Positions 4,404 through 64,000 of a DNA stretch of 64,000 nt are shown here, one piece after another. The notes under the pieces were generated by a model. The model saw only the letters and a list, made by a program, of their open reading frames with translations. It did not search any database and had not been told where the DNA came from. The position numbers were made by a program, and so were the translations under genes. The DNA is from Hydrogenophaga sp. GTDB taxonomy: Bacteria > Pseudomonadota > Gammaproteobacteria > Burkholderiales > Burkholderiaceae_C. Numbering within the stretch: position 1 is the first letter of the stretch; each line of letters opens with the position of its first letter. Location: contig NZ_JAHCKL010000002.1 in NCBI RefSeq assembly GCF_026125785.1, positions 62,001 to 126,000 of the forward strand. The letters are read 5' to 3'.

Positions 4404-4754
4404 ATGAATCCTTCTCAGACGCCCATCCCTGGCACTGTGCTGTTTGACGGTGAACAGGCCCGCAAGGGATATGCCCTCAACAAGATGTGTTTCTCGTTCA
4501 ACGAGGAGGTCAACCGCAATGCCTTCCTCGCCGACGAGGAGGGCTATATGCGCCGCTATGGCCTGAACGAACAGCAGGCCGCCGCCATCCGTTCGCGCAA
4601 TGTGCTGCAACTGCTCGCGGCCGGCGGCAACGCCTACTACCTGGCCAAGTTCGCCGGCATCTTCAAGCTCGACATGCAGGACATCGGTGCACAGCAGACC
4701 GGCCTGACCAAGGAGCAGTTCAAGGCCAAGCTGGTGGCCGCCAATCTGCAATAA
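4404..4754 (+). CDS. ligA: Protocatechuate 4,5-dioxygenase-type alpha subunit (LigA-like)
   Basis: 116 residues from the ATG at 4404, chosen because CACGGAGACG upstream provides a ribosome binding site. The helical LigA fold is recognisable from KGYALNKMCFSFNEEVNR, YMRRYGLNEQQ and LLAAGGNAYYLAKFAGI. In this enzyme class the small subunit caps the active site of the beta subunit. It is shorter than the roughly 140-150 residues of classical LigA/PmdA, mainly at the N-terminus. The beta gene follows after 26 bases. The two subunits should cleave a catechol-type ring at the meta position using ferrous iron; protocatechuate is the likeliest substrate, with gallate or a related acid as alternatives. 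Confidence 0.8.
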   Translation: MNPSQTPIPGTVLFDGEQARKGYALNKMCFSFNEEVNRNAFLADEEGYMRRYGLNEQQAAAIRSRNVLQLLAAGGNAYYLAKFAGIFKLDMQDIGAQQTGLTKEQFKAKLVAANLQ

Positions 4755-4780
4755 CCCCCACACCACGGAGCACCCACACC

Positions 4781-5626
4781 ATGGCAACACTCATCGGCGG
4801 CCTCGGCACTTCCCATATTCCCGCCATCGGCGGCGCCATCCACAAGGGACTGCAGCAGGACCCGTACTGGAAACCTTTTTTCGACGGTTTTCCGCCCATA
4901 CGCGAGTGGCTGGGCCGCGAGAAGCCGGATGTGGTGGTCATGTTCTACAACGACCACGGCCTGAACTTCTTCCTGGACAAGATGCCGACCTTCGCCATCG
5001 GCGCCGCCGCCGAGTACCACAACGCTGATGAGGGTTGGGGCATTCCCACGCTGCCGCCTTTCAAGGGAGAGCCGGCGCTGTCCTGGCACCTCATCGACGC
5101 GCTGGTGGAGAAAGAGTTCGACATCGTGAGTTGCCAGGAAATGCTGGTCGACCATGCCTGTACGCTGCCGCTCAAACTGTTCTGGCCGGACGGCGATTGC
5201 CCGGTGAGCGTGGTGCCGGTGTGCATCAACACGGTGCAGTTTCCCTTGCCCAAGGCCTCGCGCGTCTACGCCATGGGCAAGGCGGTGGGCGAAGCCATCT
5301 GCAACTGGGACAGCGACAAGAAGGTGGCGGTGATCGCCTCGGGCGGGCTGTCCCACCAGCTCGATGGCGAACGCGCGGGCTTCATCAACAAGGCGTTCGA
5401 CCTGCAGTTCCTGGACAGCCTGGAGAGCAACCCAGAATGGGCCACGCAGTTCAGCAGCCACGAGATCGTGGAGAAAGCCGGTACCCAGGGCGTGGAGTTG
5501 CTCCAGTGGCTGGCCATGCGCGGCGCGCTCACCGCCGCCGGGCCTCGTGTGCGGCGTCTGCACACCAACTACCACATCCCGATCTCGAACACCGCGACGG
5601 CGGTGATGGCGCTGGAAGCCGCCTGA
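4781..5626 (+). CDS. ligB: Protocatechuate 4,5-dioxygenase-type beta subunit (LigB-like)
   Basis: 281 residues, a class III extradiol dioxygenase catalytic subunit. The N-terminal MATLIGGLGTSHIPAIG carries the first iron-ligand His (His12), MFYNDHGLNFF the second (near 57) together with the conserved His region, and the LSHQLDGER loop near 190 the conserved active-site His. The C-terminal TNYHIPISNTATAVMAL is typical of LigB/PmdB. Only the alpha and beta genes and a LysR regulator are here: no ring-fission aldehyde dehydrogenase, lactonase or aldolase gene is adjacent, so the rest of a 4,5-cleavage pathway must be encoded elsewhere. Substrate assigned by family only. Confidence 0.85.
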   Translation: MATLIGGLGTSHIPAIGGAIHKGLQQDPYWKPFFDGFPPIREWLGREKPDVVVMFYNDHGLNFFLDKMPTFAIGAAAEYHNADEGWGIPTLPPFKGEPALSWHLIDALVEKEFDIVSCQEMLVDHACTLPLKLFWPDGDCPVSVVPVCINTVQFPLPKASRVYAMGKAVGEAICNWDSDKKVAVIASGGLSHQLDGERAGFINKAFDLQFLDSLESNPEWATQFSSHEIVEKAGTQGVELLQWLAMRGALTAAGPRVRRLHTNYHIPISNTATAVMALEAA

Positions 5627-51405: not shown

Positions 51406-52899
51406 TCAGGCCTTGTGGCGCAGGCGCTTGTACCAGCCGGTCTGGCTGACCAGGGTGAAGACCAGCGCAGCCAGGATGATGGCCGACAGCGGCGTGGTGA
51501 AGAACTCGGTGAAGAACACGCCGACGTCCTCGCCGGTGGCGATCATGGCCTGGCGGTAGCTGCGGTCCATCAGCGGTCCGAGGATCATGCCCAGCACCAC
51601 GGGACCGACCTGGAAACCGTACATCTTCAGGAAATAGCCCAGCACGCCGAAGCCAAGCATCCAGTAGACGTCCACCGGGTTGTTGTTGATGGCGTAGGCG
51701 CCCACGGCCGAGAGCACCAGGATCAGGGGCAGCAGCACCGGTTTGGGCGTCTCCACGATCTTGGCGAAGAGCTTGATCCCGGAGAGCCCGAAGATCAGCA
51801 GGAAGATGTTGGCCAGCGTGAGCGAGCCCACGATGAACCAGAACAGGTGCGGCGTCTCGATCATCAGCATGGGGCCGGGCTTGAGGCCATGGATGTACAA
51901 GGCGCCGATGATCACGGCGGTGACGGCGTCACCCGGGATGCCCAGCGTGAGCATGGGCACGTAGGCGCCGCCCACGGCCGCGTTGTTGGCCGATTCCGGG
52001 GCCACCAGGCCTTCGTAGGCACCTTCGCCGAAGGGGCGTGAAGGATTCTTCACCGTGCGCTTGGCGTGGTCGTAGGCCATCAGTGCGGCGATGTCACCAC
52101 CCGCGCCGGGCAAGGCGCCGACCACCACGCCAATGCCCGAGGTGCGCGTGGCCAGCGGCAGGTGTTTGCGCACCAGGGCCCAGGACGGGATGATCTTGCT
52201 GACGTTCTGCTTCACCACCGCGGCCTTGAGGGTGTGCAGTTGTGCAATGACCTCGGAGACGCCGAAGAAGCCGATCATGGCCGCTACGTAGGAAATGCCG
52301 GCCGACATCTGCAGGTTACCGAAGGTCAGGCGCTGCTCGCCGGTCATGGGGTCCAGGCCCACGCACGATATCAGCGCGCCCAGGGCGCCGGCAAAGATGC
52401 CCTTGGAGAGCGATTCCCCTGACAGGCTGCCGACCAACAGAATGCCCCAGATGGCCAGCAGCAGATATTCGCGCGGCCCGAACTTGAGCGCCAGTTCAGA
52501 CACGGCGGGTGCGGCCAGGGCCAGCGCCAGGATGCCGATGAAGCCGCCATAGACCGACACCACGGTGGTCAGCCCGATGGCCTGGCCGGCTTCGCCACGC
52601 TTGGCCAGCGGGTAGCCATCCAGACCGGTGGCGATGGCCGCTGGCGCGCCGGGGATGTTGAGCAGGATGGCGCTGCGCGAACCGCCGTACACGCCCCCCA
52701 GGAAGATGCCTGAGATGAGCGCCAGCGCCTGGTTGACTTCCCACTTGAAGGTGAAGGAAATCAGGATGGACACCGCCATGGTGACGGACAGGCCCGGGAT
52801 GGCGCCGATGTAGATGCCGGCGAAGGTGCCCAGCGCGGTGAGCAGCAGCAATTTGACGTCCAGCCAGGACATCAGGAAATAACCGAGGGCTTCCATCAT
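51406..52899 (-). CDS. tctA: Tripartite tricarboxylate transporter large membrane subunit (TctA)
   Basis: 497 residues from the ATG at 52897-52899, overlapping the tctB stop. About 12 membrane segments. The two TctA signatures are present: GAIPGLSVTMAVSILISFTF with GGVYGGSRSAILLNIPGAPA in the first half, and VVGALPGAGGDIAALMAYDH with GEGAYEGLVAPESANNAAVG in the second. It forms the sodium- or proton-driven channel part of a Bug-dependent importer. Substrate set by the TctC receptor encoded upstream; the surrounding catabolic genes suggest a hydroaromatic or related acid. Confidence 0.96.
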   Translation of the reverse strand: MMEALGYFLMSWLDVKLLLLTALGTFAGIYIGAIPGLSVTMAVSILISFTFKWEVNQALALISGIFLGGVYGGSRSAILLNIPGAPAAIATGLDGYPLAKRGEAGQAIGLTTVVSVYGGFIGILALALAAPAVSELALKFGPREYLLLAIWGILLVGSLSGESLSKGIFAGALGALISCVGLDPMTGEQRLTFGNLQMSAGISYVAAMIGFFGVSEVIAQLHTLKAAVVKQNVSKIIPSWALVRKHLPLATRTSGIGVVVGALPGAGGDIAALMAYDHAKRTVKNPSRPFGEGAYEGLVAPESANNAAVGGAYVPMLTLGIPGDAVTAVIIGALYIHGLKPGPMLMIETPHLFWFIVGSLTLANIFLLIFGLSGIKLFAKIVETPKPVLLPLILVLSAVGAYAINNNPVDVYWMLGFGVLGYFLKMYGFQVGPVVLGMILGPLMDRSYRQAMIATGEDVGVFFTEFFTTPLSAIILAALVFTLVSQTGWYKRLRHKA

Positions 52900-53405
52900 T
52901 TCAGCAACTCCGGTAGGTAGGGGCCGACCAGGCTGCCGGCGGGCAGCACCACCGAGAAGGCGGTGCGGAAGACGACGAAGATGGCGGCCAGCACCAGAAG
53001 GCTGACCAGCAGGTTGAGCACCACGCGGCGGCTGCCGAGCAGAAACATGGAGGCGACCAGGAAGAGGTAGGAAGCCACCAGGAAACCCACGACTTCCATG
53101 CCCAGCATGTAGAGCACGATGAGCACGGTGAACAGCACGAGCTGCAGTGGCGTGACCTTGCGCGCGAACTGTTGCCCCACGCTCTCGCCGTTGTCCAGCT
53201 GCAGGCGGGCGCGGGCGGTGGTCACCAGATTGATGATGCCGGTGACCGCCATGGCGAGGGCGCACACGGTGGGGAAGCTGCCCGGTGCGGCCAGCGAGTC
53301 GAAGCTGGAGATGTGGTAAGCCGTCCAGAGCAGGAACAGGCTGGCCAGGACCAGCAGAATCATGAAGGTGAGTTCGCCCGCCAGTCGCGGGTGGCTGGTA
53401 TGCAT
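52896..53405 (-). CDS. tctB: Tripartite tricarboxylate transporter small membrane subunit (TctB)
   Basis: 169 residues from the ATG at 53403-53405. Four membrane segments, typical of TctB: LTFMILLVLASLFLLWTAYH, an AAPGSFP motif after the first, VLFTVLIVLYMLGMEVVGFL and YLFLVASMFLLG. It partners TctA. Stop and tctA start overlap by 4 bases; the tctC gene ends 85 bases upstream on the same strand. Confidence 0.94.
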   Translation of the reverse strand: MHTSHPRLAGELTFMILLVLASLFLLWTAYHISSFDSLAAPGSFPTVCALAMAVTGIINLVTTARARLQLDNGESVGQQFARKVTPLQLVLFTVLIVLYMLGMEVVGFLVASYLFLVASMFLLGSRRVVLNLLVSLLVLAAIFVVFRTAFSVVLPAGSLVGPYLPELLK

Positions 53406-53490
53406 CGCGGATCTCCTAGAAGGGTGCGGATGACAGCCCGGACCTGCCAGAAGGTCCGGGCCGCTCCCGGCATGAATGGCCGGGCGCTGC

Positions 53491-54504
53491 TCAGGGCTTG
53501 GGAATGCCCAGCGTGGCCGGATCGACCTTGGCGGTGCCGGCACCCTGGTACAGCCATGCGGTGGTCGACTGCCATTTGCGGATAAAGGCCTCGGCCTCGG
53601 CGCCGCCGATGTTGAGCATGGTGGTGCCCCGGCCTTCCATCAGTTTGCGGTACTGCGGGTTGTCCCCGGCCTTCTTGAAGGCGGCCACCAGACGCGCCTT
53701 TACGGGCTCGGGGGTTTCCTTGCGCACGAACACGCCGTACCAGGGGCCCCATGGCAGGTACTTGGGCAGGCCGCGCAGCGACGGTGCGTCGGTCATGGGC
53801 GGAATGCCTTGGTAGGGCTTGTTGTCCAGCACGCCCAGAGCCTTGAGGCGGCCGGCGCGCACGTGTTCGATCACCGCTCCCGATGCGATGAAGCCGAAGT
53901 CGATGTGGCCGCCTTGCAGGGCAGCGATGGCAGGGCCGTCGCCATCGAAAGGTACGGGGATGGTTTCGAACTTGGTCAGGCTGCTCACCATGGTGTTCAC
54001 GGTGAAAGGCGTCGTGCCCTGGCCAGCCATGTACTGCTTGAGCTTCTTGGGGTTGGCCTGCACATGGCTGAGCAGGTCTTGCATGGTGTTGAAGGGCGAG
54101 TCCGGACGCGTGACCACAAAGATGGTGTTCGCGATGGCCGCGATGTTGATGGGATAGAAGCGGTCGTAGTCAAAGTCCGCCATGCCCATCACGCGGAACA
54201 GCGCCTGCGGTTCGGCGCCCATGAGCAGCGTGTAGCCGTCGGCCGGCTGCTGGAGGACGAAGTTGGCGCCGATGGCGCCGGCCGCGCCGGGGCGGTTCTG
54301 CAGCACGATCTTGCGGCCCAGGGCTTCCTCCGCATACGGCGCGTAGCCGCGCATCGCCACGTCGGTGCCGCCTCCGGCGCCCCATTGAATGATGGCGGTC
54401 ACGTCGCGCTCGGGGTAGTTCTGGGCGAGGGCCGGGGTGCCCAGGGTGGCGGCGGCCAGCGCTGCGGCGGCCGCGCCCATGAATTGGCGTCGTTGTTTCA
54501 GCAT
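53491..54504 (-). CDS. tctC: Bug-family substrate receptor (TctC)
   Basis: 337 residues from the ATG at 54502-54504. A twin-arginine-like leader (MLKQRRQFMGAAAAALAAAT) ends near ALAQ. Bug-type features follow: VTAIIQWGAGGGTDVAMRGY, LQNRPGAAGAIGANFVLQQP, ADGYTLLMGAEPQ and GVFVRKETPEPVKARL near the end. It catches the substrate in the periplasm for TctAB. First gene of the tctCBA operon; the predicted IclR element with 21-bp spacing lies 125-160 bases upstream. Confidence 0.95.
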   Translation of the reverse strand: MLKQRRQFMGAAAAALAAATLGTPALAQNYPERDVTAIIQWGAGGGTDVAMRGYAPYAEEALGRKIVLQNRPGAAGAIGANFVLQQPADGYTLLMGAEPQALFRVMGMADFDYDRFYPINIAAIANTIFVVTRPDSPFNTMQDLLSHVQANPKKLKQYMAGQGTTPFTVNTMVSSLTKFETIPVPFDGDGPAIAALQGGHIDFGFIASGAVIEHVRAGRLKALGVLDNKPYQGIPPMTDAPSLRGLPKYLPWGPWYGVFVRKETPEPVKARLVAAFKKAGDNPQYRKLMEGRGTTMLNIGGAEAEAFIRKWQSTTAWLYQGAGTAKVDPATLGIPKP

Positions 54505-54628
54505 GGTGTTGTCTCCTTGGTGATCAAGCCCTTCATCAGGGCTTCGGGGCGGGTGAAGTGGATGTGTCGCGAGTGGTTGCCAATGTAGAAGCTGCCTATT
54601 CGACGGTCCATGGCGGACGAACACTTGC

Positions 54629-54662
54629 CGATCGATAATCGATCGAATTTGATCGTTTATCG
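54629..54662. promoter_or_regulatory. Predicted IclR (PcaU-like) site A, tctCBA operon
   Basis: TCGATAATCG (54632-54641) is repeated as TCGTTTATCG (54653-54662), exactly 21 bases apart. The left copy is part of a perfect 17-bp palindrome (CGATCGAT-A-ATCGATCG, 54629-54645). The same 10-bp element with the same spacing occurs at 60064 and 63827. Confidence 0.65.
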
Positions 54663-54693
54663 GTTGTAACTAGGGTTAATACTGAGTTCTGTC

Positions 54694-55488
54694 TCAACGG
54701 CCCAGGAGGAATTCGACGATGAGCTCCTTGACGCGCCCGAACATCTCACCGCCAGTGACGCTGGCGCAGCCGCGCTCGCGTGCCGCCACCAGGAAAGGAG
54801 AAACCGGTGGCGCGGTGATGGCGCAGGCCGCCATGGTGCCCGGCTGCAGGCGCGTCACGTCGATGGGGTAGGGGTCGTCAGCCTGCATGCCCGCGGTGGT
54901 GGCGTTGACCACAAGGTCGAACCCGGTCGGATCGGCACTGCCGTGCGTGACCGGGCACAGGCCCAGCGCGGCCAGCCGTTCCACCAGCGCCTGCCGGCGC
55001 TGGGCATCGGTGTCGTGGATGGCCAAGCGGCTCACGCCAGCCAGCGCCAGTGAGTGCGCGATGGCGGATCCGGCGCCGCCCGCGCCCGCCAGCAGGGCGG
55101 ACTTGCCTTTGGGCTCGTAGCCCTTGTCCTGCAGCGCTCGCAGCATGCCTGGCCCGTCGCCCATGTCGCCATGCCAGCCGCCGTCGGGGCCGCGGCGCAT
55201 GGTGTTGACGGCGCGCAGGAAGGCCGCGTGTTCCGTGGTGGAGGAGCAGAGGTCGAAACAGGCGAACTTGTGGGGCACGGTGACGATGATGCTGTCCACG
55301 TTCTGTGCCAGCGAGACGCCTGCCACCCAGGCCCGCAACTGGGCGGGTGCGACATGGGCCGGGACCACCAGCGCATTGCGGCCTTGGGCGACCAATGCGC
55401 GTGTGACGTCGGAAGGGGATTTCACCTGGGCGATCGGATCGCCGACGATGTAGTGGATGCGGGTGGCGCCGTTGAGATGGTCGAGCAT
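54694..55488 (-). CDS. Divergent shikimate/quinate dehydrogenase-like protein 1
   Basis: 264 residues. The AroE fold is clear: GDPIAQVKSPSDVTRAL at the N-terminus, catalytic Lys74 in IIVTVPHK, Asn95 in RAVNTMRR, and Asp111 in HGDMGDGPG; the NAD(P) motif is ALLAGAGGAGSAIAHSLALA. The first Ser of the usual SKS motif, which holds the shikimate carboxylate, is Val22, and the usual GxNTDG reads GDMGDG. So the catalytic residues remain while the substrate pocket differs. It is transcribed away from an IclR gene. Housekeeping AroE is unlikely; a catabolic role on quinate, shikimate or a related ring is inferred. Confidence 0.85.
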   Translation of the reverse strand: MLDHLNGATRIHYIVGDPIAQVKSPSDVTRALVAQGRNALVVPAHVAPAQLRAWVAGVSLAQNVDSIIVTVPHKFACFDLCSSTTEHAAFLRAVNTMRRGPDGGWHGDMGDGPGMLRALQDKGYEPKGKSALLAGAGGAGSAIAHSLALAGVSRLAIHDTDAQRRQALVERLAALGLCPVTHGSADPTGFDLVVNATTAGMQADDPYPIDVTRLQPGTMAACAITAPPVSPFLVAARERGCASVTGGEMFGRVKELIVEFLLGR

Positions 55489-55547
55489 GGCTGCTGGCGT
55501 AGGCCGAGGTTGAAGTGGCGGCGATCTTAATTAAAACTGGAATTCGG

Positions 55548-55560
55548 TTCAACTATTGAA
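55548..55560. promoter_or_regulatory. Palindrome between AroE-like gene and IclR gene
   Basis: TTCAA-CTA-TTGAA lies in the AT-rich 104-base region between the divergent starts. Its sequence is unlike the TCGAT-type sites of the cluster, so it is more likely bound by the IclR protein encoded next to it. Confidence 0.5.
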
Positions 55561-55592
55561 TTTTGTTCTGAAAATAGATAGACTGCTCGCCC

Positions 55593-56426
55593 ATGAGTGG
55601 CGTACTCGAACGGACCCTGGGCATTCTGGAACTGCTGTCGCGGTACGGAGAAGGCATGGAGTTGGCTGTGCTGGCCGACCGGCTGGGCATGCCCCGCAGC
55701 GCCGCCCACCGGCTGCTGGCCGACCTGGTGCGGCTGGGCTATGTGCGCCAGGCACGGGGGCGTGGCGACTACATGCTGACCACGCGGCTGGTGAGCATGG
55801 GCCTGTCCTACCTGAGCCAGAGTGGCATTGTGGATGTGGCCCAGCCACTGCTCAACCAGTTGGCCGAAGCTTCCGGTGAGCTGGTGAGGCTTTCCGTGGT
55901 CGATGGCGAACGCCTGACCTGGGTGGCGCGCGCGCAAGGAGCGCGCCAGGGCCTGCGGTACGACCCCGACATGGGCATCGATGCCCAGCTCTCGTGTTCC
56001 TCGTCGGGCTGGGCTTGGCTGTCCACCTTGAGCGATGACGTGGCGCTGGCTTTGTTGGCTCGGCAAGGCCTGGGCGCACCTGAAGATTTCGGCCCCGACG
56101 CGCCGACCTCGCTGCAGGCTGTGATGGAGGCCGTCCGGGCGACGCGTGAACGCGGCTACAGCCTGACGGTGGACACCTACGGGCTGGGCCTGTCGGCCAT
56201 CTCGGCACCGGTGCGCTTCGCCGGGCAGGCGGCCATGGGCGTCATCACCATCGCCGGCCCGACCGTGCGATTCACGCCGCAGCGCATGCAGGAGTTCGGT
56301 CCCGAGCTCTTGTCGGTTGCCGCTCAGCTCGCCGCCATCAGCGGTGCATCACCTTTCTTCAACCTCACTGCAGAGACCGGCGGCGCCGATGCCCCAGCGG
56401 GGCGCCGGCCGATCTATGCCCCCTGA
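55593..56426 (+). CDS. IclR-family regulator 1
   Basis: 277 residues. The N-terminal winged helix is LERTLGILELLSRYGEGMEL, LADRLGMPRSAAHRLLADLV and RLGYVRQARG; the effector domain has LVRLSVVDGERLTWVARAQG, AQLSCSSSGWAWLSTLSDD and VDTYGLGLSAISAPVR. It lies opposite the first AroE-like gene and is followed by an isomerase, an acyl-CoA dehydrogenase and a CoA-transferase, all on its strand. It probably controls that set. It differs from the PcaR-type IclR gene at the window's end. Confidence 0.92.
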   Translation: MSGVLERTLGILELLSRYGEGMELAVLADRLGMPRSAAHRLLADLVRLGYVRQARGRGDYMLTTRLVSMGLSYLSQSGIVDVAQPLLNQLAEASGELVRLSVVDGERLTWVARAQGARQGLRYDPDMGIDAQLSCSSSGWAWLSTLSDDVALALLARQGLGAPEDFGPDAPTSLQAVMEAVRATRERGYSLTVDTYGLGLSAISAPVRFAGQAAMGVITIAGPTVRFTPQRMQEFGPELLSVAAQLAAISGASPFFNLTAETGGADAPAGRRPIYAP

Positions 56427-56447
56427 CTTCTACCACCACAGCAACCC

Positions 56448-57263
56448 ATGACACGAATCTATTCACTCGCCTATCTCGGGGCTCACCGTTGCACGCCCGC
56501 CGAAGCCCTGCGCGTAGGCGCTGCCCAGGGCTATGCCTATGTGGGCTTGCGTCTGTGGCCCAACGCCCCCGGGGCTCCGCAGCAGCATCTGCTGGGAGAT
56601 GCCGAAGCTCTGCGCGAAACCGTGGCGGTGCAGCGCGACACCGGCGTGGGCGTTTTCGACCTGGAGATCATCCGCATCAACGAAGGCTTTGATCCGCACA
56701 CCTGGGATGCGCTCTACGACGCGGGTGCCGCGCTGAACGCCAAGGCGATCCTGGTGGCCGGCGACGATCCCGACGAGGCGCGTCTGACCGACAGCTATGC
56801 CCGCCTGTGCGAGGTGATGAAGCCTTATGGGATGACGGCCGATCTGGAGTTCATGCCCTGGACCGCGGTGTCCAGCGCCAATGCCGCGCTGCGCGTGATC
56901 CGCAACGCCGGCCAGCCCGCCAACGCAGGCATCCTGGTGGATGCGCTGCACTTCGGGCGCTCCCACACCACGCTGGACGACATCCGCGCCATTCCGCGCG
57001 AGCTGCTGCACTACGCCCAGATCTGCGACGCGCAGGCCGGCACCCACTTCAGCCACGAGCAATTGATCCACACCGCGCGTTGCGAACGCCTGTTGCCGGG
57101 CGACGGCACCATCGACCTGCATGGCCTGTTCGCGGCCTTGCCGGCAGACCTGCCCATCAGCGTGGAAGTGATCAACCTCGAACGCGAGAAGACGGCCGAC
57201 GTCAACGCCTGGGCTGCCCAGTGCCTGGCGGCGAGCCGTCCCTTTGTCGAAGCCACCCGCTGA
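56448..57263 (+). CDS. TIM-barrel sugar phosphate isomerase/epimerase-family protein
   Basis: 271 residues of the xylose isomerase-like family. Metal-binding acids are likely in VFDLEIIRINEGF (Glu), MTADLEFMPWTAVSS (Glu), AGILVDALHFGRS (Asp and His) and PISVEVINLEREK (Glu). Family members isomerise or dehydrate sugars and cyclic polyols. It follows the IclR gene by 21 bases and precedes the acyl-CoA dehydrogenase by 23. A ring isomerase or dehydratase role on a hydroaromatic acid is possible; nothing in the sequence proves the substrate. Confidence 0.82.
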   Translation: MTRIYSLAYLGAHRCTPAEALRVGAAQGYAYVGLRLWPNAPGAPQQHLLGDAEALRETVAVQRDTGVGVFDLEIIRINEGFDPHTWDALYDAGAALNAKAILVAGDDPDEARLTDSYARLCEVMKPYGMTADLEFMPWTAVSSANAALRVIRNAGQPANAGILVDALHFGRSHTTLDDIRAIPRELLHYAQICDAQAGTHFSHEQLIHTARCERLLPGDGTIDLHGLFAALPADLPISVEVINLEREKTADVNAWAAQCLAASRPFVEATR

Positions 57264-57286
57264 CCTTTTGCCTCAGAAAGAGAACC

Positions 57287-58447
57287 ATGGACTTTTCCCT
57301 CAACGATGAACAAAAGATGATGATCGACACCGTGCGTCGATTCATCGCCGAAGAGCTGCAACCACTGGAAGACACGCTGGAGAACCAGGGCCGTCTGGAC
57401 AAGGCCCAGGCGCAGGCGGTGCACGAGAAGTCCAAGGCGCTCGGGCTCTACGCCCTGAACATGCCGGCCGAGTTGGGCGGTGCCGGACTGTCCAACCTGG
57501 ACCGCATCCTGTGTGAAGAGCAGTTCGGCCACACCACCGACTACCTGATCCGCCGGGCCTTCGGCAATGTGTACGAGCCGCTGCTGCACTGCAAGGGCGA
57601 ACAGGTCGAGCGCTGGCTCACGCCTTCGGTGCGTGGCGAGCGCACCTGCGCCATCGCCATCACCGAGCCTGGCGCTGGCTCCGATGCGGCGGGCATCCAG
57701 ACCCATGCGCGCAAGACCGAGAACGGCTGGGTGCTCAACGGCAGCAAGCACTTCATCAGCGACGGCGAGTGGAGTGACTTCTTCCTGGTTTCGGCCAGGA
57801 CCGGCGAGAAAGAGATTTCGATGTTCATGGTCGACAAGGGCCTGCCCGGTTTCACCGTGGGCAAGGACCAGGCCATGATGGGCATCCGCGGTACGCCGCA
57901 CCTGGAACTGTTCTTCGACAACGTGCCGCTGGAGAACGCCGCGCTGCTGGGCGAGCAAGGCCAGGGCTTCAAGCTCGCCATGGGCGCGCTCAATGTGGTC
58001 CGCCTGGCCCAGGTGGGCGCGCGCGCGGTGGGCAAGGCTTCGCACGTGTGCGAGAAGATGCTGGCCTACGCCAACGAGCGCCAGCAGTTCAAGACCCGCA
58101 TCGGCGAGTTCCAGATGATCCAGCAAATGCTGGCCGACAGCGTGATCGAGATCAATGCCGCACGCTGGATGGTCTATCACGCTGCGTGGATGCTGGACCA
58201 GGGCTTGGACGCACGCGAGCAGATCGCCATGGTCAAGGTGCACGCGGCCGAGACGCTGGGCCGCGTCGTGGACCGCGCGGTGCAGGTCTTCGGTGGCATG
58301 GGCTTCTGCAAGGAGCTGCCCATCGAACGTTACTACCGCGATGCGCGCATCTACCGCATCTTCGACGGCACCAGCGAGATCCACCGCGGCGTGATCGCCA
58401 AGAGCGCGCTCAAGAAGGGCGCCATGCTGTTCGACATCCACCGGTGA
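57287..58447 (+). CDS. Acyl-CoA dehydrogenase with Asp at the usual base position
   Basis: 386 residues from the ATG at 57287. The FAD-dependent fold is complete: AIAITEPGAGSDAAGIQTHA and GWVLNGSKHFISDGEWSDFF in the middle domain, RQQFKTRIGEFQMIQQMLAD and VFGGMGFCKELPIERYYRDA in the C-terminal domain. The motif that usually reads YEGT(S/A)EIQR, where Glu is the catalytic base in medium-chain enzymes, is IFDGTSEIHR, with Asp360. Asp there, or a base elsewhere, is seen in ring-acting and branched-chain members. It should oxidise a CoA thioester; the CoA-transferase 6 bases downstream would supply it. Confidence 0.92.
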   Translation: MDFSLNDEQKMMIDTVRRFIAEELQPLEDTLENQGRLDKAQAQAVHEKSKALGLYALNMPAELGGAGLSNLDRILCEEQFGHTTDYLIRRAFGNVYEPLLHCKGEQVERWLTPSVRGERTCAIAITEPGAGSDAAGIQTHARKTENGWVLNGSKHFISDGEWSDFFLVSARTGEKEISMFMVDKGLPGFTVGKDQAMMGIRGTPHLELFFDNVPLENAALLGEQGQGFKLAMGALNVVRLAQVGARAVGKASHVCEKMLAYANERQQFKTRIGEFQMIQQMLADSVIEINAARWMVYHAAWMLDQGLDAREQIAMVKVHAAETLGRVVDRAVQVFGGMGFCKELPIERYYRDARIYRIFDGTSEIHRGVIAKSALKKGAMLFDIHR

Positions 58448-58452
58448 GCACC

Positions 58453-60036
58453 ATGACGCACAGCAAGTTCGTGACGGCCGCGCAGGCGGTCGAACTCATT
58501 CGCGACGGTGACACCGTCGGCCTCATGGGCGGCGGCGGCGGCCTGATGGAGGCCACCCATGTGTTCGAGGCGGTGCAGGCTCGCTTCAAGGCCACGCAGA
58601 CGCCGCGCGACCTGACCGTGGTCCATGCACTGGGCATTGGCGACAAGAAGACCAAGGGCATGAACTGCTTCGCGCACGAAGGCCTGGTGCGCCGCGTCAT
58701 CGGCGGCCACTGGGTCTGGTCACCCGCCATGCAGCAGCTCGCGCTGGACAACAAGATCGAGGCCTACATCCTGCCCGGCGGCGTTTCCAGCCAACTGCTG
58801 CGCGAGATCGGCGCCGGACGGCCCGGGCTGATCTCGCACGTTGGCCTGGGCACGGTGTGCGACCCGCGCCACGGCGGCGGACGCATGAACGATGCCGCGC
58901 GCGACGACTTGGCCGAGGTCATCGCCATCGACGGCCGAGAGTACCTGCGCTACAAACCCTTTCCCATCCACGTGGCCATCGTGCGCGCGAGCGCGGCCGA
59001 CGAGGACGGCAACATCAGCTTCGAGCACGAGGCCGCCAACCTGGACGCGCAGTCGCTGGCGCTGGCCGCACGCAACAGCGGTGGCAAGGTGATCGTGCAG
59101 GTCAAGGAACGCCTGCCGCGCGGTTCGCTCAAGGCGCGCGAAGTGCGCATTCCTTCTGCCTGGGTGGACGCCATCGTGGTCGACCCCGCGCAGCAGACCA
59201 GCTACGACATCCCGTTTGATCCCGCCTTCAGCGGCGAGCTGACCGGCGAAGCGCGCGCGCGCAGCGAGGCCGAGGACCATGCGCGCGAAGTGGCCGCGGC
59301 GCAGGAGGCTTTCAGCGAGCGCCAGGCCGTGGCCCGGCGCGCCGCCGAGGAACTCTTCAACACCGGCAAGGCGCGTCCCGTCATCAACTACGGCGTGGGC
59401 GTGCCCGATGCGGTGGCCAAGCTGATTGCCGCGCGCGATGAGCAACACCGCATCTACCAGACCATCGAGCACGGCACCTATGGCGGCACGCTGATGGACG
59501 GTGTGCTGTTTGGCTACGCGCGCAACGCCACCGCGATGCTGGACGCGGCCACCCAGTTCGACTTCTATGGCGGTGGCGGGCTGGACGTGGCCTTCCTGGG
59601 GTTTGGCGAGTTCGACGAGGAGGGCAGTGTCAACGTCTCGCGCCTGGGTGGCGTCACGGTAGGGCCGGGGGGCTTCATCGACATCGCGCAGAACGCGCGC
59701 AAGGTGGTGTTCTGTGGCACGCTGGCGGCCAAGGGCGTGAAGCTGCAGACCGGCGATGGCCAGATGCGGGTGCTGCAGCAGGGCAGCGTGAAGAAGCTGG
59801 TGAACAAGGTCGACCAGATCACCTTCAGCGGCCCGCAGGGGCTGGTGCGTGGACAGGAGGTGCTCTACCTTACCGAGCGTGGCAGCTTCCGGCTGACGCC
59901 AGACGGCGTGGAACTGTTCGAGATCGCACCCGGCATCGACCTGCAGCGCGACATCCTGGATCAGATGGCTTTCCAGCCCCGTGTGGCGCAGCCTTTGGCC
60001 GTGATGCCCGCACGCTTCTTCGACGCCACAGCCTGA
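58453..60036 (+). CDS. Fused acyl-CoA:carboxylate CoA-transferase (Pct/family I type)
   Basis: 527 residues, both halves of a class I CoA-transferase in one chain. The N-terminal half has GDTVGLMGGGGGLMEATHVF and LPGGVSSQLLREIGAGRPGL; the C-terminal half has the catalytic Glu339 in YQTIEHGTYGGTLMDG, plus DFYGGGGLDVAFLGFGEFD and GSVNVSRLGGVTVGPGGFID. Such enzymes move CoA from acetyl- or succinyl-CoA to a carboxylate with no ATP cost. Its place behind an acyl-CoA dehydrogenase suggests it activates the substrate that this enzyme then oxidises. Confidence 0.92.
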   Translation: MTHSKFVTAAQAVELIRDGDTVGLMGGGGGLMEATHVFEAVQARFKATQTPRDLTVVHALGIGDKKTKGMNCFAHEGLVRRVIGGHWVWSPAMQQLALDNKIEAYILPGGVSSQLLREIGAGRPGLISHVGLGTVCDPRHGGGRMNDAARDDLAEVIAIDGREYLRYKPFPIHVAIVRASAADEDGNISFEHEAANLDAQSLALAARNSGGKVIVQVKERLPRGSLKAREVRIPSAWVDAIVVDPAQQTSYDIPFDPAFSGELTGEARARSEAEDHAREVAAAQEAFSERQAVARRAAEELFNTGKARPVINYGVGVPDAVAKLIAARDEQHRIYQTIEHGTYGGTLMDGVLFGYARNATAMLDAATQFDFYGGGGLDVAFLGFGEFDEEGSVNVSRLGGVTVGPGGFIDIAQNARKVVFCGTLAAKGVKLQTGDGQMRVLQQGSVKKLVNKVDQITFSGPQGLVRGQEVLYLTERGSFRLTPDGVELFEIAPGIDLQRDILDQMAFQPRVAQPLAVMPARFFDATA

Positions 60037-60053
60037 GCGAATACGGGTTTTCC

Positions 60054-60094
60054 CGATGTTCGGTCGATCATCGAACGGATTCGACCGAACATCG
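60054..60094. promoter_or_regulatory. Predicted IclR (PcaU-like) site B, second AroE-like gene
   Basis: TCGATCATCG (60064-60073) is followed at 21 bases by CCGAACATCG (60085-60094). The whole is enclosed in a perfect 14-bp inverted repeat, CGATGTTCGGTCGA (60054-60067) and TCGACCGAACATCG (60081-60094). Three GTTCG-type half sites are visible, the layout known for PcaU and PobR operators. Confidence 0.7.
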
Positions 60095-60182
60095 CTCCCG
60101 GCGTGGTGCCATCAGGGCCTGACCGCTGGCCGCTGCTCCTACAGTTGCGCGCAAGACCTTCCATCTCTTCAGCGCTGACACC

Positions 60183-61016
60183 ATGATCAACGGCCACACG
60201 GACATCCTTGCCCACATCGGTTACCCGACGCACACCTTCAAGTCGCCGCTCATCTACAACCCCTATTTCGAGCACATCGGCGTCAACGCGGTGGTGGTGC
60301 CCATGGGTTGCCGCACGCCCGACTACCCGGCGTTCCTGCGTTCGGTCTTCACCCTCACGAATATCCGGGGCGCGCTCATCACCATGCCGCACAAGGTGGT
60401 GACCATGGGCCTGCTGGACGAGGTGACGGCCACGGCCCGGGTGGCCGGTGCCTGCAATGCCGTCAAGCGCACCGAAGACGGTCGCCTGGTCGGCGACATG
60501 TTCGACGGCGAGGGCTTCGTGCGCGGCGTGCGCCGCAAGGGCCTGGTGCTGGCTGGCGCCAAGGTGCTGGTGGTGGGCAGTGGTGGCGTGGGCAGCGCGA
60601 TTGCCGCCTCCCTGGCGGCGGCCGGCGTGGGCATGCTGGCGCTGCACGACGTCAACAGGGCCTCGGCCGAGGCGCTGGCTCAGCGCTTGCGCCAGCACTT
60701 TCCGGCGGTCGAACTGCGCCTGGGGTCCAACGATCCTGCCGGCATGGACCTGGTGGTCAATGCCACGCCGCTGGGCATGAACGAAGGCGATCCGCTGCCG
60801 CTGGATGTGTCTCGCCTGGCCGCGCGCACCTTCGTCGGCGAGGTGGTGATGCGCACCGAGATGACCGCCTTTCTGTCGGCGGCCCGGGACCGTGGTTGTG
60901 CGGTTCAAGTGGGTACCGACATGCTGTTCGAACAGATTCCCGCCTATCTGGAATACTTCGGGTTTCCCACCACCACGGCCGAGGTGCTGCGGTCGGTGGC
61001 CCGTCTGAGCGACTGA
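60183..61016 (+). CDS. Divergent shikimate/quinate dehydrogenase-like protein 2
   Basis: 277 residues. AroE-type features: GYPTHTFKSPLIYNPYF, Lys71 in LITMPHKVV, Asn92 in GACNAVKR, Asp108 in VGDMFDGEGF, and the cofactor motif VLVVGSGGVGSAIAASLAAA with Asp in HDVNRAS (selecting NAD). As in the first copy, the first Ser of SKS is replaced (Phe19) and NTDG reads MFDG, so the two paralogues share the same departures. It follows predicted IclR site B by about 90 bases and precedes a DMT transporter. Probably acts on a ring substrate brought in by this cluster. Confidence 0.87.
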   Translation: MINGHTDILAHIGYPTHTFKSPLIYNPYFEHIGVNAVVVPMGCRTPDYPAFLRSVFTLTNIRGALITMPHKVVTMGLLDEVTATARVAGACNAVKRTEDGRLVGDMFDGEGFVRGVRRKGLVLAGAKVLVVGSGGVGSAIAASLAAAGVGMLALHDVNRASAEALAQRLRQHFPAVELRLGSNDPAGMDLVVNATPLGMNEGDPLPLDVSRLAARTFVGEVVMRTEMTAFLSAARDRGCAVQVGTDMLFEQIPAYLEYFGFPTTTAEVLRSVARLSD

Positions 61017-61038
61017 CCGCATTCCCAGCAAGGCCCCC

Positions 61039-61905
61039 TTGTACGACCCGAGATTTCCGCACGCCGCGCAAGGCATCGCGCTGGCGGTGCTGGCCATGCT
61101 GTGCTTTGCCTTGCTGGACACCATTTCGCAGTACGTGGGGCCCATGGTCCCGGTGTTCATGGCGGTCTGGCTGCGTTTCCTGGTGCAGGCGGTCATGACG
61201 CCGCTGCTGCTCTGGCGGCGGCAAGGCCCGGCCATGTTGCGCACCCGTGCGCCGGGTTGGCAGGTCCTGCGTGGCTCGCTCATGCTGTGCTCCAGCGCGG
61301 TCGCCTACATGAGCCTGCGCCATGTGCCGGTGGCGGAGTTCACCGCCATCCTGATGCTGGTGCCGCTCATCATCACCGTGCTGGCCGCGCCGCTGCTGCG
61401 CGAGCGCATCACGCCCATGACCTGGTGGCTGGTGGCGGGCGGCTTGATCGGCGCGCTGGTGGTGATCCGCCCGCGGGGAGGGCAGTTCCAGGGAGCCTTG
61501 TTGCTGCCGCTGGGGCTGGTGATGATCAACGCGGTCTACCAGATCGTGACCAGCCGCATGGTGCGCACCGAAGACCCTGGCACCACCCATTTCTACACCG
61601 GCCTGACCGGGCTGGTCATCAGTTCGCTGCTGCTGCCCTGGACCTGGGCCGCTCTGGCGGACTGGAAGCTGTGGGTGCTGGCGGCGTTGATCGGGGTGTT
61701 CGGCTCACTCGGCCACTACCTGCTGATCCAGGCTTACCACCGTGCGCCGGCCTCTCGGTTGACGCCCTACATGTACGCGCAGGTCTGTTTTGCCACGCTG
61801 CTGGGCTGGCTGGCCTTTGGCTACGCGCCCGATGCCTGGTCCATCGCTGGCATCGTGCTCATCGCACTGTGCGGAGGCCTGGGCGTGCGCATGCGGCACG
61901 GCTGA
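61039..61905 (+). CDS. DMT-superfamily (EamA) transporter in the catabolic cluster
   Basis: 288 residues from a TTG start at 61039, with AAGG about 5 bases upstream; no ATG lies near the natural N-terminus. Ten membrane segments in two EamA repeats: ALAVLAMLCFALLDTISQYV with MAVWLRFLVQAVMTPLLLWR first, and GALLLPLGLVMINAVYQIVT opening the second. HVPVAEFTAILMLVPLIITV and APASRLTPYMYAQVCFATLL are the paired fourth segments. It follows the AroE-like gene by 22 bases and ends 5 bases before the convergent dehydratase gene. Substrate unknown. Confidence 0.9.
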   Translation: MYDPRFPHAAQGIALAVLAMLCFALLDTISQYVGPMVPVFMAVWLRFLVQAVMTPLLLWRRQGPAMLRTRAPGWQVLRGSLMLCSSAVAYMSLRHVPVAEFTAILMLVPLIITVLAAPLLRERITPMTWWLVAGGLIGALVVIRPRGGQFQGALLLPLGLVMINAVYQIVTSRMVRTEDPGTTHFYTGLTGLVISSLLLPWTWAALADWKLWVLAALIGVFGSLGHYLLIQAYHRAPASRLTPYMYAQVCFATLLGWLAFGYAPDAWSIAGIVLIALCGGLGVRMRHG

Positions 61906-61910
61906 GGCGC

Positions 61911-62819
61911 TCAGCCAACGCCCAGCTTCAGGCGCATCTGGTTGGGCAGCGGCACTGAGCGGCGCAGCACGTCCTCGGCCAGCCACAGGGCCGAGCGCCG
62001 AGCGCGCTCGGCCACCATGGGCAGCGGCATCTGCTGGTAGTCGTCGTTGAAGACCTCGAAGCTGTAGTCGCCCCGGTAGCCCAGGCGGTCGAGCTTGAGC
62101 ACGAGGTCCACCAGTTGTTCGCTGTGCACGCCCTCGCCAGGGAACACGCGGAAGGTGCGCGCGGTGGTCATGCGCTCTTCGAAAGTGCGGGTTTCCTGCC
62201 ACATGAAATCCGCGAGCTGGACCAGGAAGATCTTGTCCGGATCGAGGTAGTCGATCTCCTCCAGCGGCGTCTTGGCCGCGAAGATGTGGAACGAATCCAG
62301 GCCCAGGCCCAGGTTGGGGCAGTCGGCGCGGCACACCACGTCCCAGGCGGTGGTGAACTCATTGACCGTGCGGCCCCAGGACAGGCCCTCATAGGCGATC
62401 CGTATGCCCAGCGGGATGGCCAGCATCGCCAGCTTGCGCAGGTCGCGCGCAATGTGGTCGATGTCTTGCGAGGCGTGCACCGACGTGGACGAGCAGGCCA
62501 GCAGCACGCGGCAGTCCAGCGCGGCGCACATCTCCAGCATGCTCTTGGCGATGTCCATCTTGTAGTGGTGCAGATGCCCCGACAGGCCCTCGAAGTCGCG
62601 CAGCACCTGGAAGCCGGTGCCGCGCAGGCCGCTGTCTTTCACCGCCTGCACGGCGGCCTGCAGCCCGCCCGGGTGGCCGACCAGGTCGTTGGCCTTGAGC
62701 ATGACTTGCGAGAAGCCTGCGGCTTTCATGGCGGCCAGCTTGGCCTCCAGCGGTCCCGCCAGGGTGATGGTGTCCATGCCGAAGCCGCCGATGGCTTCGC
62801 TCGTGTCGCGTGCGTGCAT
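61911..62819 (-). CDS. 3-dehydroshikimate dehydratase-like TIM-barrel enzyme
   Basis: 302 residues from the ATG at 62817-62819 (a GTG directly before it could be used). The metal-ligand set of bacterial dehydroshikimate dehydratases is in order: Glu144 in RIAYEGLSWGR, Asp175 in LGLGLDSFHIF, Gln201 in FLVQLADFMW and Glu255 in YSFEVFNDD. TFRVFPGEGVHSEQLVDL is also typical. It should dehydrate 3-dehydroshikimate to protocatechuate. In QsuB/QuiC enzymes this domain is fused to an HPPD-like domain; here the HPPD-like part is a separate gene, 6 bases upstream. Confidence 0.83.
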   Translation of the reverse strand: MHARDTSEAIGGFGMDTITLAGPLEAKLAAMKAAGFSQVMLKANDLVGHPGGLQAAVQAVKDSGLRGTGFQVLRDFEGLSGHLHHYKMDIAKSMLEMCAALDCRVLLACSSTSVHASQDIDHIARDLRKLAMLAIPLGIRIAYEGLSWGRTVNEFTTAWDVVCRADCPNLGLGLDSFHIFAAKTPLEEIDYLDPDKIFLVQLADFMWQETRTFEERMTTARTFRVFPGEGVHSEQLVDLVLKLDRLGYRGDYSFEVFNDDYQQMPLPMVAERARRSALWLAEDVLRRSVPLPNQMRLKLGVG

Positions 62820-62825
62820 CACCGC

Positions 62826-63743
62826 TCAGGCCTTTTCGCTGTGAACCAGTTCAAACACCACCGACCCGAGGTAGGTCTTGGTGATGGCGCCGCGCTGCTC
62901 GGTGTGCGCGGCGGCGGTTTCGACGAACTCCACACCCAGTGCGCGCAAGGCGTTGACCGCCGCCAGCACGTCGGGAACCCCCAGGCCGATGCGCTGCAGG
63001 CGCTCGTCGGCATCGACCACGTTGATCTCCGGTTCGATGAGTTGCAGCATGAAGCGCTTTGCGGGGTCCAGCGCCGGTGTGCGCAGCAGCGTGCCCTTGG
63101 GCATGATGCCGAAGCGTTGGTCATCCGGGATGAGCTCGGTGCCGAAAAGCTCGTTGTAGAACTCGATCCAGTCGTTGCTGCGTTCGGGTCCGATGTACTG
63201 CACGACGCCGAAGAAGTGCAGGCCGGCGGTGGCCGGTGGCCGCTGGTCCACCGAGGGGATGGGCACGAAATCCACGTCGTAGATCGAAAACTCCTTGTAC
63301 CGGTCGACAAAGTAGATGCGGCTGTTGCCCGCGCCGTGGATGGCCGGGATGTTGAGTTCCATCACCTCCGCGTGCGTGGGCACCGACCAGGCACCGCGTT
63401 CGAGCACATAGTGGTAGGCCGCTCGCGCGTCGCGCACGCGCAGCGCGATCGCGGAAATGAAAGGCACCTCACCGCCATGGCCACCGCCGCTGCGGGCGTC
63501 CGTGGGGTGCGCATTGACCACGATGTTGAGTTCCCCCTGGCGGTACAGCAGCACCTCGCGCGAACGGTGGCGCCCGACCGGGCGAAAGCCCATCATCTCC
63601 AGCACCTGCCCCAGGGCCTGAGGCTTGCTGGTCACGTACTCGATGAACTCGACGCCATCCAGGCCCAGCGGGTTGGCGGCGTCGCTGAAGGACGCCTGCA
63701 GGGGTTCGCGGCCAGCACTGGTGCTGAGAAGGAGATCGCTCAT
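62826..63743 (-). CDS. HPPD-like vicinal oxygen chelate protein, partner of the dehydratase
   Basis: 305 residues of two VOC repeats, resembling the C-terminal domain of QsuB/QuiC more than true 4-hydroxyphenylpyruvate dioxygenase. It opens with GLDGVEFIEYVTSKPQALGQ, a family hallmark, and has MMGFRPVGRHRSREVLLYRQ, GLHFFGVVQYIG (His) and SVVFELVHSEKA (Glu) at the end. It is first in the pair, the TIM-barrel dehydratase second, the reverse of the domain order in the fused enzymes. In those fusions this half has no proven catalytic role. Confidence 0.83.
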   Translation of the reverse strand: MSDLLLSTSAGREPLQASFSDAANPLGLDGVEFIEYVTSKPQALGQVLEMMGFRPVGRHRSREVLLYRQGELNIVVNAHPTDARSGGGHGGEVPFISAIALRVRDARAAYHYVLERGAWSVPTHAEVMELNIPAIHGAGNSRIYFVDRYKEFSIYDVDFVPIPSVDQRPPATAGLHFFGVVQYIGPERSNDWIEFYNELFGTELIPDDQRFGIMPKGTLLRTPALDPAKRFMLQLIEPEINVVDADERLQRIGLGVPDVLAAVNALRALGVEFVETAAAHTEQRGAITKTYLGSVVFELVHSEKA

Positions 63744-63825
63744 GAGGACACTCTCTGGGGTAAGGACAACGGTCGGACTTTAGGGCCAGCTCAGGGTTGA
63801 GCCCAAGCAGGCAGTCCCAAAAACG

Positions 63826-63859
63826 GTCGACAATCGGACATTCGCAATCGATGATCGAT
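63826..63859. promoter_or_regulatory. Predicted IclR (PcaU-like) site C, dehydratase genes and iclR
   Basis: TCGACAATCG (63827-63836) and TCGATGATCG (63848-63857) are 21 bases apart. The right copy is within a perfect palindrome, ATCGAT-G-ATCGAT (63847-63859). It lies between the divergent HPPD-like gene and the IclR gene, so one bound regulator could control both. Confidence 0.65.
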
Positions 63860-63899
63860 CAATATACGGGTTATCCCTAGACATCAAACCGAGCCTGCC

Positions 63900-64000
63900 A
63901 TGCCGACACCCCCTGCACCTGTGACACCGCATCCCCTGGAACGCCGCGACTGGATCGCCGGTCTGGAGCGGGGGCTTGCGGTCATCGAGGCCTTCGACGA
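63900..64000 (+). CDS. IclR-family regulator 2 (PcaR/PcaU-like), N-terminal part
   Basis: Starts at the ATG at 63900 and runs off the window after about 33 residues. The visible part, RRDWIAGLERGLAVIEAFD, is the usual start of PcaR/PcaU/CatR-type IclR proteins, which respond to protocatechuate-pathway acids. It is divergent from the HPPD-like/dehydratase genes, with predicted site C in between. It is the natural candidate to bind the three sites spaced at 21 bases. Confidence 0.8.
   Translation, partial: MPTPPAPVTPHPLERRDWIAGLERGLAVIEAFD

Follow-up and report, generated by a model that had tools for sequence, protein, structure and literature searches.

The ydi locus of Escherichia coli K-12 (ydiN-ydiB-aroD-ydiF-ydiO-(ydiP)-ydiQRST-fadK) has an AroE-family enzyme by a YdiF-type coenzyme A (CoA)-transferase and an acyl-CoA dehydrogenase, with ydiQR of the electron transfer flavoprotein (ETF) type. 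The dehydroshikimate dehydratases (DSDs) QuiC1 of Pseudomonas putida and QsuB of Corynebacterium glutamicum have a 4-hydroxyphenylpyruvate dioxygenase (HPPD)-like domain and an active site for which part of PMC7442255 lists R64, L97, E134, L136, D165, H168, Q191, S206, R210 and E239. The chc pathway of Sinomonas cyclohexanicum forms a ketone and then uses two desaturases, as told in the relevant part of PMC9795900, and in the thn pathway of anaerobic naphthalene degradation the family I CoA-transferase ThnP and the acyl-CoA dehydrogenase ThnO work jointly on a cyclohexanecarboxyl-CoA, according to part of PMC11659651. Here we describe a gene cluster of Hydrogenophaga sp. that recalls these systems. 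It was found in a stretch of 64,000 nucleotides (the window; G000:C12:62001-126000), and in window numbering it spans 51406 to 64688, running beyond the window end.

Four minus-strand genes come first, tctA-tctB-tctC-aroE1. The plus strand then carries iclR1-TIM1-ACAD-CoAT-aroE2-eamA, the minus strand TIM2 and VOC, and the plus strand again iclR2. All genes named in an earlier sequence-only reading of this DNA are open frames with family matches, including two AroE-like proteins, a Tct importer, an acyl-CoA dehydrogenase (ACAD) and a fused CoA-transferase (CoAT), tctA and tctB being present as frames only. Judging from their sequences, we give about even chances to the reading that these genes form a two-branch hydroaromatic-acid island converging on protocatechuate. 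One set of genes, module B (aroE1, iclR1, TIM1, ACAD and CoAT in the window), would aromatize a reduced, ring-hydroxylated cyclohexanecarboxylate; the other, module A, comprises aroE2, eamA, TIM2, VOC, iclR2 and, by operator type, the tct genes.

Module B recurs in relatives, which were collected via the alignment of TIM1. The named-locus set is the best 80 of 414 TIM1 relatives, so that the sample favors close relatives (Limnohabitans, Hydrogenophaga, Malikia, Pseudacidovorax, Xenophilus, Variovorax, Polaromonas, Rhodoferax and Cupriavidus basilensis). Genes were counted as linked when no more than 10 kb from TIM1, in the 42 named loci of at least 20 kb; the other 38 are shorter. On this count AroE1 is linked in 41 loci, IclR1 in 39, the flavoproteins FAD1 and FAD2 in 38 and 37, a NIPSNAP protein in 37, and ACAD together with CoAT in 38, while all seven are present in 33 of the 42. 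TIM1, ACAD and CoAT are consecutive among labelled genes in 37, and the usual order is importer - FAD1 - AroE1 | (GFO) - IclR1 - FAD2 - NIPSNAP - TIM1 - ACAD - CoAT. Over all 80 loci the rates are lower in the shorter ones, with AroE1, ACAD and CoAT near TIM1 in 59, 55 and 51. Every one of the 42 loci has a candidate system for desaturating a ring: both FAD and ACAD in 34, FAD only in 4, ACAD only in 4 and neither in none (neither in 9 of the 80, all 9 short). ETF genes follow CoAT in L059/L144, one record; other records duplicated across this set and the family sample described below are L057/L092, L058/L086 and L066/L157.

As a control, we inspected 20 loci around CoA-transferases 39-47% identical to CoAT, which cover 21 of the 31 non-window CoA-transferase places. 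AroE1, AroE2, TIM1, IclR1, FAD1 and FAD2 were absent from all 20, and distant ACAD homologues (27-33%) occurred in 2; L055, one further such place, was likewise without AroE, TIM1, IclR1 or FAD neighbors. A neighborhood of AroE-like and CoA genes that varied between relatives would have refuted the sequence-only reading; among the named loci it is conserved, and the reading withstands this check.

Module B is also larger than the window. A second locus on the same contig (L008, C12:2000-20000), about 107 kb from the window cluster, carries FAD1, a second AroE1 (60% identity), a second IclR1 (82%), FAD2 and NIPSNAP. FAD1 and FAD2 both resemble the 3-oxosteroid 1-dehydrogenase 7p18 (E 1.5e-82 and 1.5e-91), and they score above the cut-offs of PRK12843 and PRK06134 respectively, neither of which names a function. 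The CoA branch suggested earlier may thus not be the sole source of ring unsaturation, to which these KstD-like flavoenzymes could also contribute. Steroid catabolism is not favored for the KstD-like pair, given its AroE, DSD-like and lig neighbors. The NIPSNAP protein (L008:11374-12000; in 65 of the 80 named loci) usually adjoins FAD2, and NCBIfam assigns it no function. L008 also holds short-chain dehydrogenase/reductase (SDR) genes, and a transporter recognized there by eye is of the TRAP type.

The two modules are distinguished by their putative operators. Between aroE1 and iclR1 lies a double palindrome (55537..55572, plus strand), of a type that scores above 3 on our matrix in 68 of 76 AroE1 upstream regions, with no site in 8; these 76 regions, some of them duplicate records, served both to train the matrix and to count its sites, and its best score on shuffled regions was -7.5. 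The exact pattern GAAN5TTCN7GAAN5TTC is found at two places only in the genome, namely this gap and the corresponding gap of L008 (C12:10499), and a reversed control pattern had no genome matches. The simplest reading is that window module B and L008 would be one regulon in two places.

A different palindrome marks module A. It stands upstream of tctC (54632..54644), upstream of aroE2 (60064..60076) and between VOC and iclR2 (63848..63860), all given on the plus strand, and TCGATNATCGAWC is exact in the genome at these three places only, the tctC site being two overlapping match rows counted once. With one mismatch, TCGATNATCGAWC gives 15 more rows, of which 2 are the opposite strand of known sites and 13 lie elsewhere in the genome. 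The narrower pattern TCGATSATCGAWC, from which the tctC site differs by one mismatch and which the other two sites match exactly, has 6 matches in the window (both strands, one mismatch) against a shuffled mean of 0.19, and 0 of 100 shuffles reach 6. In relatives, IclR2 homologues have a similar palindrome in front of them in 9 of 11 places, tctC in 7 of 18 (window included), VOC in 6 of 19 and AroE2 in just 2 of the 27 places scanned; it was found in none of 77 AroE1 upstream regions. From position and conservation, we infer that IclR1 recognizes the double palindrome and IclR2 the second type.

Since the operator types are disjoint, the earlier claim of two IclR genes with different operators serving two sub-branches is well founded, given this predicted pairing. 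The operator of the Tct importer, on the other hand, is of the IclR2 type and not of the IclR1 type. As far as operator type can indicate, Tct thus goes with module A in this genome and is weakened as a candidate importer for module B; as a counterpoint, tct adjoins FAD1-AroE1 in relatives.

The enzymes encoded by module B in the window were examined individually. AroE1 (54694..55488, minus strand; Shikimate_dh_N, E 3e-11) belongs to the shikimate dehydrogenase family, and its closest solved relative is 4k28 both by sequence and by predicted structure (model pLDDT 92.3, TM 0.91 to 4k28; predicted models were compared by Foldseek). The Lys, Asn and Asp of the superfamily are kept as K73, N94 and D110, constant in 18 proteins and in 30 AroE1 sequences; we take them to be the counterparts of the catalytic K65, N86 and D102 of E. 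coli AroE. At the positions that we assume to be S14 and Q244 of that enzyme, Val is found in 29 of 30 and 30 of 30 AroE1 sequences, with Gln at the latter position in AroE2. The Val residues may point to a substrate that carries fewer hydroxyls on its ring.

TIM1 (56448..57263, plus strand; AP_endonuc_2, E 9.7e-13) is a xylose-isomerase-like TIM barrel. It had been read as a second TIM-barrel isomerase; as a correction to this, it appears to carry most of the DSD active site. On a low-identity alignment it keeps 8 of the 10 residues (L136 is Met and S206 is Ala), and all ten positions are constant in 38 TIM1 proteins. It scores only 27 bits on the QuiC model, and the best Foldseek matches of its model (pLDDT 94.4) are Lmo2234, IolI and QuiC1, with AsbF at rank 29.

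ACAD (57287..58447, plus strand; Acyl-CoA_dh_1, E 2.7e-46) stays below the cut-offs of the cyclohexanecarboxyl-CoA dehydrogenase models NF043006 (238 of 650 bits) and TIGR03207 (166 of 575 bits). Its C-terminal EGT motif holds the site at which acyl-CoA dehydrogenases usually have their base. There, Asp replaces the Glu of 1ukw in 62 of 63 matches of at least 65% identity, a set that contains repeated records; in the remaining match the motif was not found. CoAT (58453..60036, plus strand; CoA_trans, E 3.6e-22) is a family-I CoA-transferase of the YdiF type with fused alpha and beta chains, 41% identical to E. coli YdiF, the best solved relative (2ahu, E 1.9e-124, residues 8-524). In this alignment TIEHG and TVETG stand opposite each other, with the Glu in the beta half; this Glu is presumably catalytic. 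The regulator gene iclR1 (55593..56426, plus strand; IclR_C, E 1.5e-22) encodes a protein scoring 125 bits on TIGR02431, the PcaR/PcaU/PobR model, which has a cut-off of 284.75.

Module A is consistent with a route from shikimate or 3-dehydroshikimate to protocatechuate by way of a split dehydratase. TIM2 (61911..62822, minus strand, start uncertain), the predicted catalytic half, covers positions 6-268 at the N-terminal end of the QuiC model (E 1.7e-47), and VOC (62826..63743, minus strand; Glyoxalase_5, E 3.1e-44) positions 290-467 at its C-terminal end (E 1.2e-21), in agreement with the dehydroshikimate dehydratase pair read earlier. The two halves are separate genes, with VOC upstream of TIM2, and score 162 (TIM2) and 77 (VOC) bits on the fused QuiC model NF042435, against a cut-off of 1200 that is out of reach for a single half. 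TIM2 matches the solved structure 5hmq (E 2.2e-40) and keeps 9 of the 10 DSD residues, S206 being Ala; the 5hmq chain numbering was taken as shifted by 2, with which all ten listed residue letters fit. VOC scores slightly better on the 4-hydroxyphenylpyruvate dioxygenase model (E 1.6e-23) than on QuiC, below the cut-off. AroE2 (60183..61016, plus strand; Shikimate_dh_N, E 1e-14) reaches 140.6 bits on the NCBIfam AroE equivalog, with a cut-off of 200.2, and IclR2 reaches 267.8 bits of 284.75 on TIGR02431. The PcaR/PcaU/PobR-like iclR2 starts at 63900 on the plus strand and has 101 bases inside the window (63900..64000); the remainder, to 64688 (L006:13901-14689), was taken from the genome and the family match checked.

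AroE2 orthologues (E <= 1e-40) occur in 35 of 300 genomes of the order, own included; the loci read from these were the 20 best places outside the own genome plus 16 more stretches. In many of these genomes AroE2 adjoins TIM2, VOC and IclR2 homologues without CoA genes, and L029-L032 have the order VOC-AroE2-TIM2 with an adjoining IclR2 homologue. No CoAT match (E <= 1e-12) was found near AroE2 loci outside the own genome, except one of fragment length in L037. This, with the IclR2-type motif upstream of aroE2, does not favor AroE2 as a member of the CoA module; as a counterpoint, AroE2 lies near CoA genes in L079, L083, L086, L087, L095, L101, L113, L115, L120 and L137.

The genes for protocatechuate 4,5-cleavage point to this route as the probable sink of the cluster. 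Within 10 kb of TIM1, ligI, ligA, ligB and ligC are all present in 6 of the 80 named loci, and ligC alone in one more. LigA exceeds the cut-off of the model for the alpha subunit of protocatechuate 4,5-dioxygenase, and LigB that of a model for the beta subunit of a class III extradiol dioxygenase; LigI and LigC are names that we assume from position and similarity. The own genome has the same four genes (81-90% identical) at about 56.5 kb on C12, the contig of the cluster. A type II dehydroquinase is near TIM1 in 4 of the 80 loci and module A genes in 14, and at least one of the lig, aroQ or module A genes is present in 15 of the 42 and 23 of the 80. At 4419-5623 the window also has a more distant dioxygenase pair of the LigAB kind, which shares 36-40% identity with the lig genes found in relatives.

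We therefore discuss the pathway as two branches. In branch A, Tct would import shikimate or a close relative, AroE2 would oxidize it to 3-dehydroshikimate, and TIM2 with VOC would give protocatechuate. Branch B would start from, for example, 3,4-dihydroxy- or 3,4,5-trihydroxycyclohexanecarboxylate (dihydroshikimate). CoAT would load CoA onto the acid, possibly from the thioester of the unsaturated product, so that CoA cycles, as it does through a CoA-transferase in caffeate reduction by Acetobacterium. ACAD would form the C1=C2 bond on the CoA ester, passing electrons to ETF; AroE1 would make the ring ketone, the KstD-like FAD1 and FAD2 would desaturate beside it, and the DSD-like TIM1 would remove water. 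The ring needs three unsaturations (a ketone or enol, a desaturation, and a dehydration or second desaturation), which these enzymes could supply in combination. For a trihydroxy acid, ACAD desaturation, AroE1 oxidation and TIM1 dehydration would lead to protocatechuate; for a dihydroxy acid, a flavoenzyme desaturation would take the place of the dehydration. Protocatechuate would then enter the LigAB 4,5-cleavage route.

More specifically, and as a tentative proposal that we hold with less than even confidence, module B may be an undescribed aerobic pathway of Comamonadaceae for recovering reduced hydroaromatic acids such as dihydroshikimate and 3,4-dihydroxycyclohexanecarboxylate, with a CoAT and ACAD loop acting as a free-acid desaturase, followed by ketone-directed desaturation and DSD-like dehydration to protocatechuate. 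Fermenting bacteria reduce quinate and shikimate, and by analogy module B would be the oxidative counterpart of that reduction.

Several observations weigh against the proposed two-branch pathway. AroE1 and both FADs are below the cut-offs of functionally named families, AroE1 reaching at best 111.5 bits for an NCBIfam AroE cut-off of 252. ACAD and two FADs are more desaturation than one substrate requires, and neither NIPSNAP nor the Gfo/Idh/MocA protein found in 32 of the 42 loci has a place in the scheme. The closest locus, L115 (Hydrogenophaga sp. IBVHS1), has no FAD1, FAD2 or NIPSNAP beside TIM1, and its genome holds FAD2 homologues only 42-54% identical (E <= 1e-60), so that it does not share the split seen in the window genome. 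L060 has CoAT and ACAD, but its 20 kb of sequence gave no match to TIM1 or to an AroE-like protein, and the 13 one-mismatch IclR2-type places lie outside the cluster. Finally, linkage is weaker in the wider family. Among 160 family genomes, TIM1 (E <= 1e-40) is found in 20 and CoAT (E <= 1e-150) in 7, own included in both; in 17 TIM1 loci fetched from the 19 non-own genomes (leaving out G366 and G409), some ending at contig ends, AroE1 is near TIM1 in 9, ACAD in 4 and CoAT in 3. The CoA pair therefore belongs to the subclade nearest the window, where it is an addition.

Three other explanations were weighed for module B. It is unlikely, on our estimate, that it converts mono-oxygenated cyclohexanecarboxylates (4-hydroxy or 4-oxo) to 4-hydroxybenzoate in the manner of the Sinomonas chc genes, with AroE1 as an alcohol dehydrogenase and FAD1 and FAD2 as successive desaturases. 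In that organism two consecutive desaturases aromatize 4-oxo-cyclohexanecarboxylate (PMC9795900, in the part concerned), and the ChcC2 model (NF053677) gives FAD2 478-490 and FAD1 417-420 bits, while neighboring SDR proteins have 166 and 186 bits on the ChcB2 model. These scores are far below the cut-offs of 900 for ChcC2 and 350 for ChcB2; over four FAD proteins, the ranges are 417-490 bits on ChcC2 and, on ChcC1 (NF053676), 302-315 of 1000. The gene pobA adjoins module B in L066/L157, one record, as would suit 4-hydroxybenzoate but also protocatechuate as the end point of the main reading, yet this is 1 of the 80 named loci, against 7 of 80 that have one or more lig genes. We recognized neither a P450 nor any different ring hydroxylase next to TIM1, no search having been aimed at one, and the DSD-like TIM1 would be without a job.

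It is likewise unlikely that ACAD and CoAT are a fatty-acid or branched-chain beta-oxidation pair that stands beside aroE by history, outside the breakdown of ring acids. Short-chain acyl-CoA dehydrogenases are among the PDB structures that ACAD matches best, CoAT has 351 bits on the fatty-acid-degradation model FadX (cut-off 750), L060 carries the two genes alone, and short MaoC-like (hydratase-type) frames were seen by eye near CoAT in L061 and L063. AroE-like genes adjoin CoAT or ACAD in L061 and L063 too, however, and both the constancy of the TIM1-ACAD-CoAT grouping and the 20 distant CoA-transferase loci devoid of AroE, TIM1 and FAD matches speak against chance proximity.

It is very improbable that module B works reductively and disposes of electrons by turning shikimate-type acids into saturated ones, a role also imaginable for E. 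coli ydi: the combination of AroE, YdiF, acyl-CoA dehydrogenase and ETF is that of ydiB-aroD-ydiF-ydiO-ydiQR, and ACAD matches the caffeyl-CoA reductase subunit CarC (6fah, E 1.1e-62), but ACAD is just 32% identical to YdiO, KstD-like enzymes are oxidative as characterized, and aerobic oxidation is implied by the genes for protocatechuate 4,5-dioxygenase that some relatives have next to the cluster. The classical quinate pathway alone is rejected for module B, as neither CoA enzymes nor KstD-like ones nor a second AroE are required there; the two type II dehydroquinases of the genome are on other contigs.

The remaining features can be described briefly. Of the importer genes, tctA (51406..52899, minus strand, 497 amino acids), the membrane subunit of a tripartite tricarboxylate-type importer, is presumably such from its partner genes, and 16 of the 80 named loci hold a match to it that is 80% identical or more; tctB (52896..53408, minus strand, start inferred, frame only) would be the small membrane subunit and sits between tctA and tctC in Tct-bearing relatives; and tctC (53491..54504, minus strand; Pfam TctC, E 2.5e-37) is the periplasmic binding protein. 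In L057, FAD1 adjoins the gene of a metabolite/H+ symporter, which scores 264 bits against a cut-off of 538 on the shikimate-transporter model and has a homologue in L065. An EamA-family transporter gene (61039..61905, plus strand; EamA, E 5.5e-28) follows aroE2. Downstream of iclR2 are a quinone-oxidoreductase-like gene and apparent housekeeping genes, named by eye, so that the cluster seems to end there. On contig C17 of the genome (L043:10550-13831), a further AroE-like gene is followed by a TctC-type binding protein and, by eye, an FAD-dependent oxidoreductase.

In relatives, the Gfo/Idh/MocA protein is usually located between AroE1 and IclR1 (e.g. L098:4604-5665) and occurs in 37 of the 80 loci; it has no match in the window or L008. 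A further KstD-like flavoenzyme (45-48% identical to FAD2), with a small NIPSNAP-like protein and an SDR, is found near module B in L088, L089, L112, L114, L116, L119, L129, L136, L139, L142, L145, L146, L149 and L154, plus L067 and L073, and most have an AraC-type regulator; the L067 copy of the flavoenzyme has 549 bits on the ChcC2 model (cut-off 900). This set is perhaps a related alicyclic pathway.

If the proposal is correct, Comamonadaceae would have an aerobic sink for reduced plant ring acids, and many genes curated merely as 'FAD-dependent oxidoreductase', 'NIPSNAP' or TIM-barrel isomerase-like would gain a role, as would, in testable form, the E. coli ydiF-ydiO pair beside ydiB-aroD. 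Testing should be easy, there being two small regulons with clear motifs.

By titles and abstracts, we found no description of this Comamonadaceae cluster in the open-access literature, the scope of our search, subscription papers lying outside it. From sequence comparison, module B is a real, conserved and apparently uncharacterized cluster, whose substrate we infer. It is compared with the thn genes through the joint action of ThnP and ThnO, which resembles the proposal for CoAT and ACAD; according to the same part of PMC11659651, ThnP is an intramolecular transferase of the Cat1 subgroup and is reported to have lost the glutamate conserved in the active site, and thn degradation proceeds anaerobically. 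The order of ketone formation and desaturation proposed for module B is that of chc, whereas module B has an AroE-type dehydrogenase, a DSD-like TIM barrel, NIPSNAP and CoA genes, and FADs below the ChcC cut-offs. Module A shares with QuiC1 and QsuB the active-site residues kept in TIM2 and, in VOC, the HPPD-like domain, but its dehydratase is two genes rather than one, in reversed order, and its AroE2 is below the AroE cut-offs. The E. coli ydi record shows no TIM1, FAD1/2, NIPSNAP or IclR gene at its locus, comparison with E. coli AroD gave no match in the window, and AroE1 is 25% identical to YdiB. Since an AroE enzyme, a YdiF-type transferase and an acyl-CoA dehydrogenase already stand together in ydi, annotation had made this combination known.

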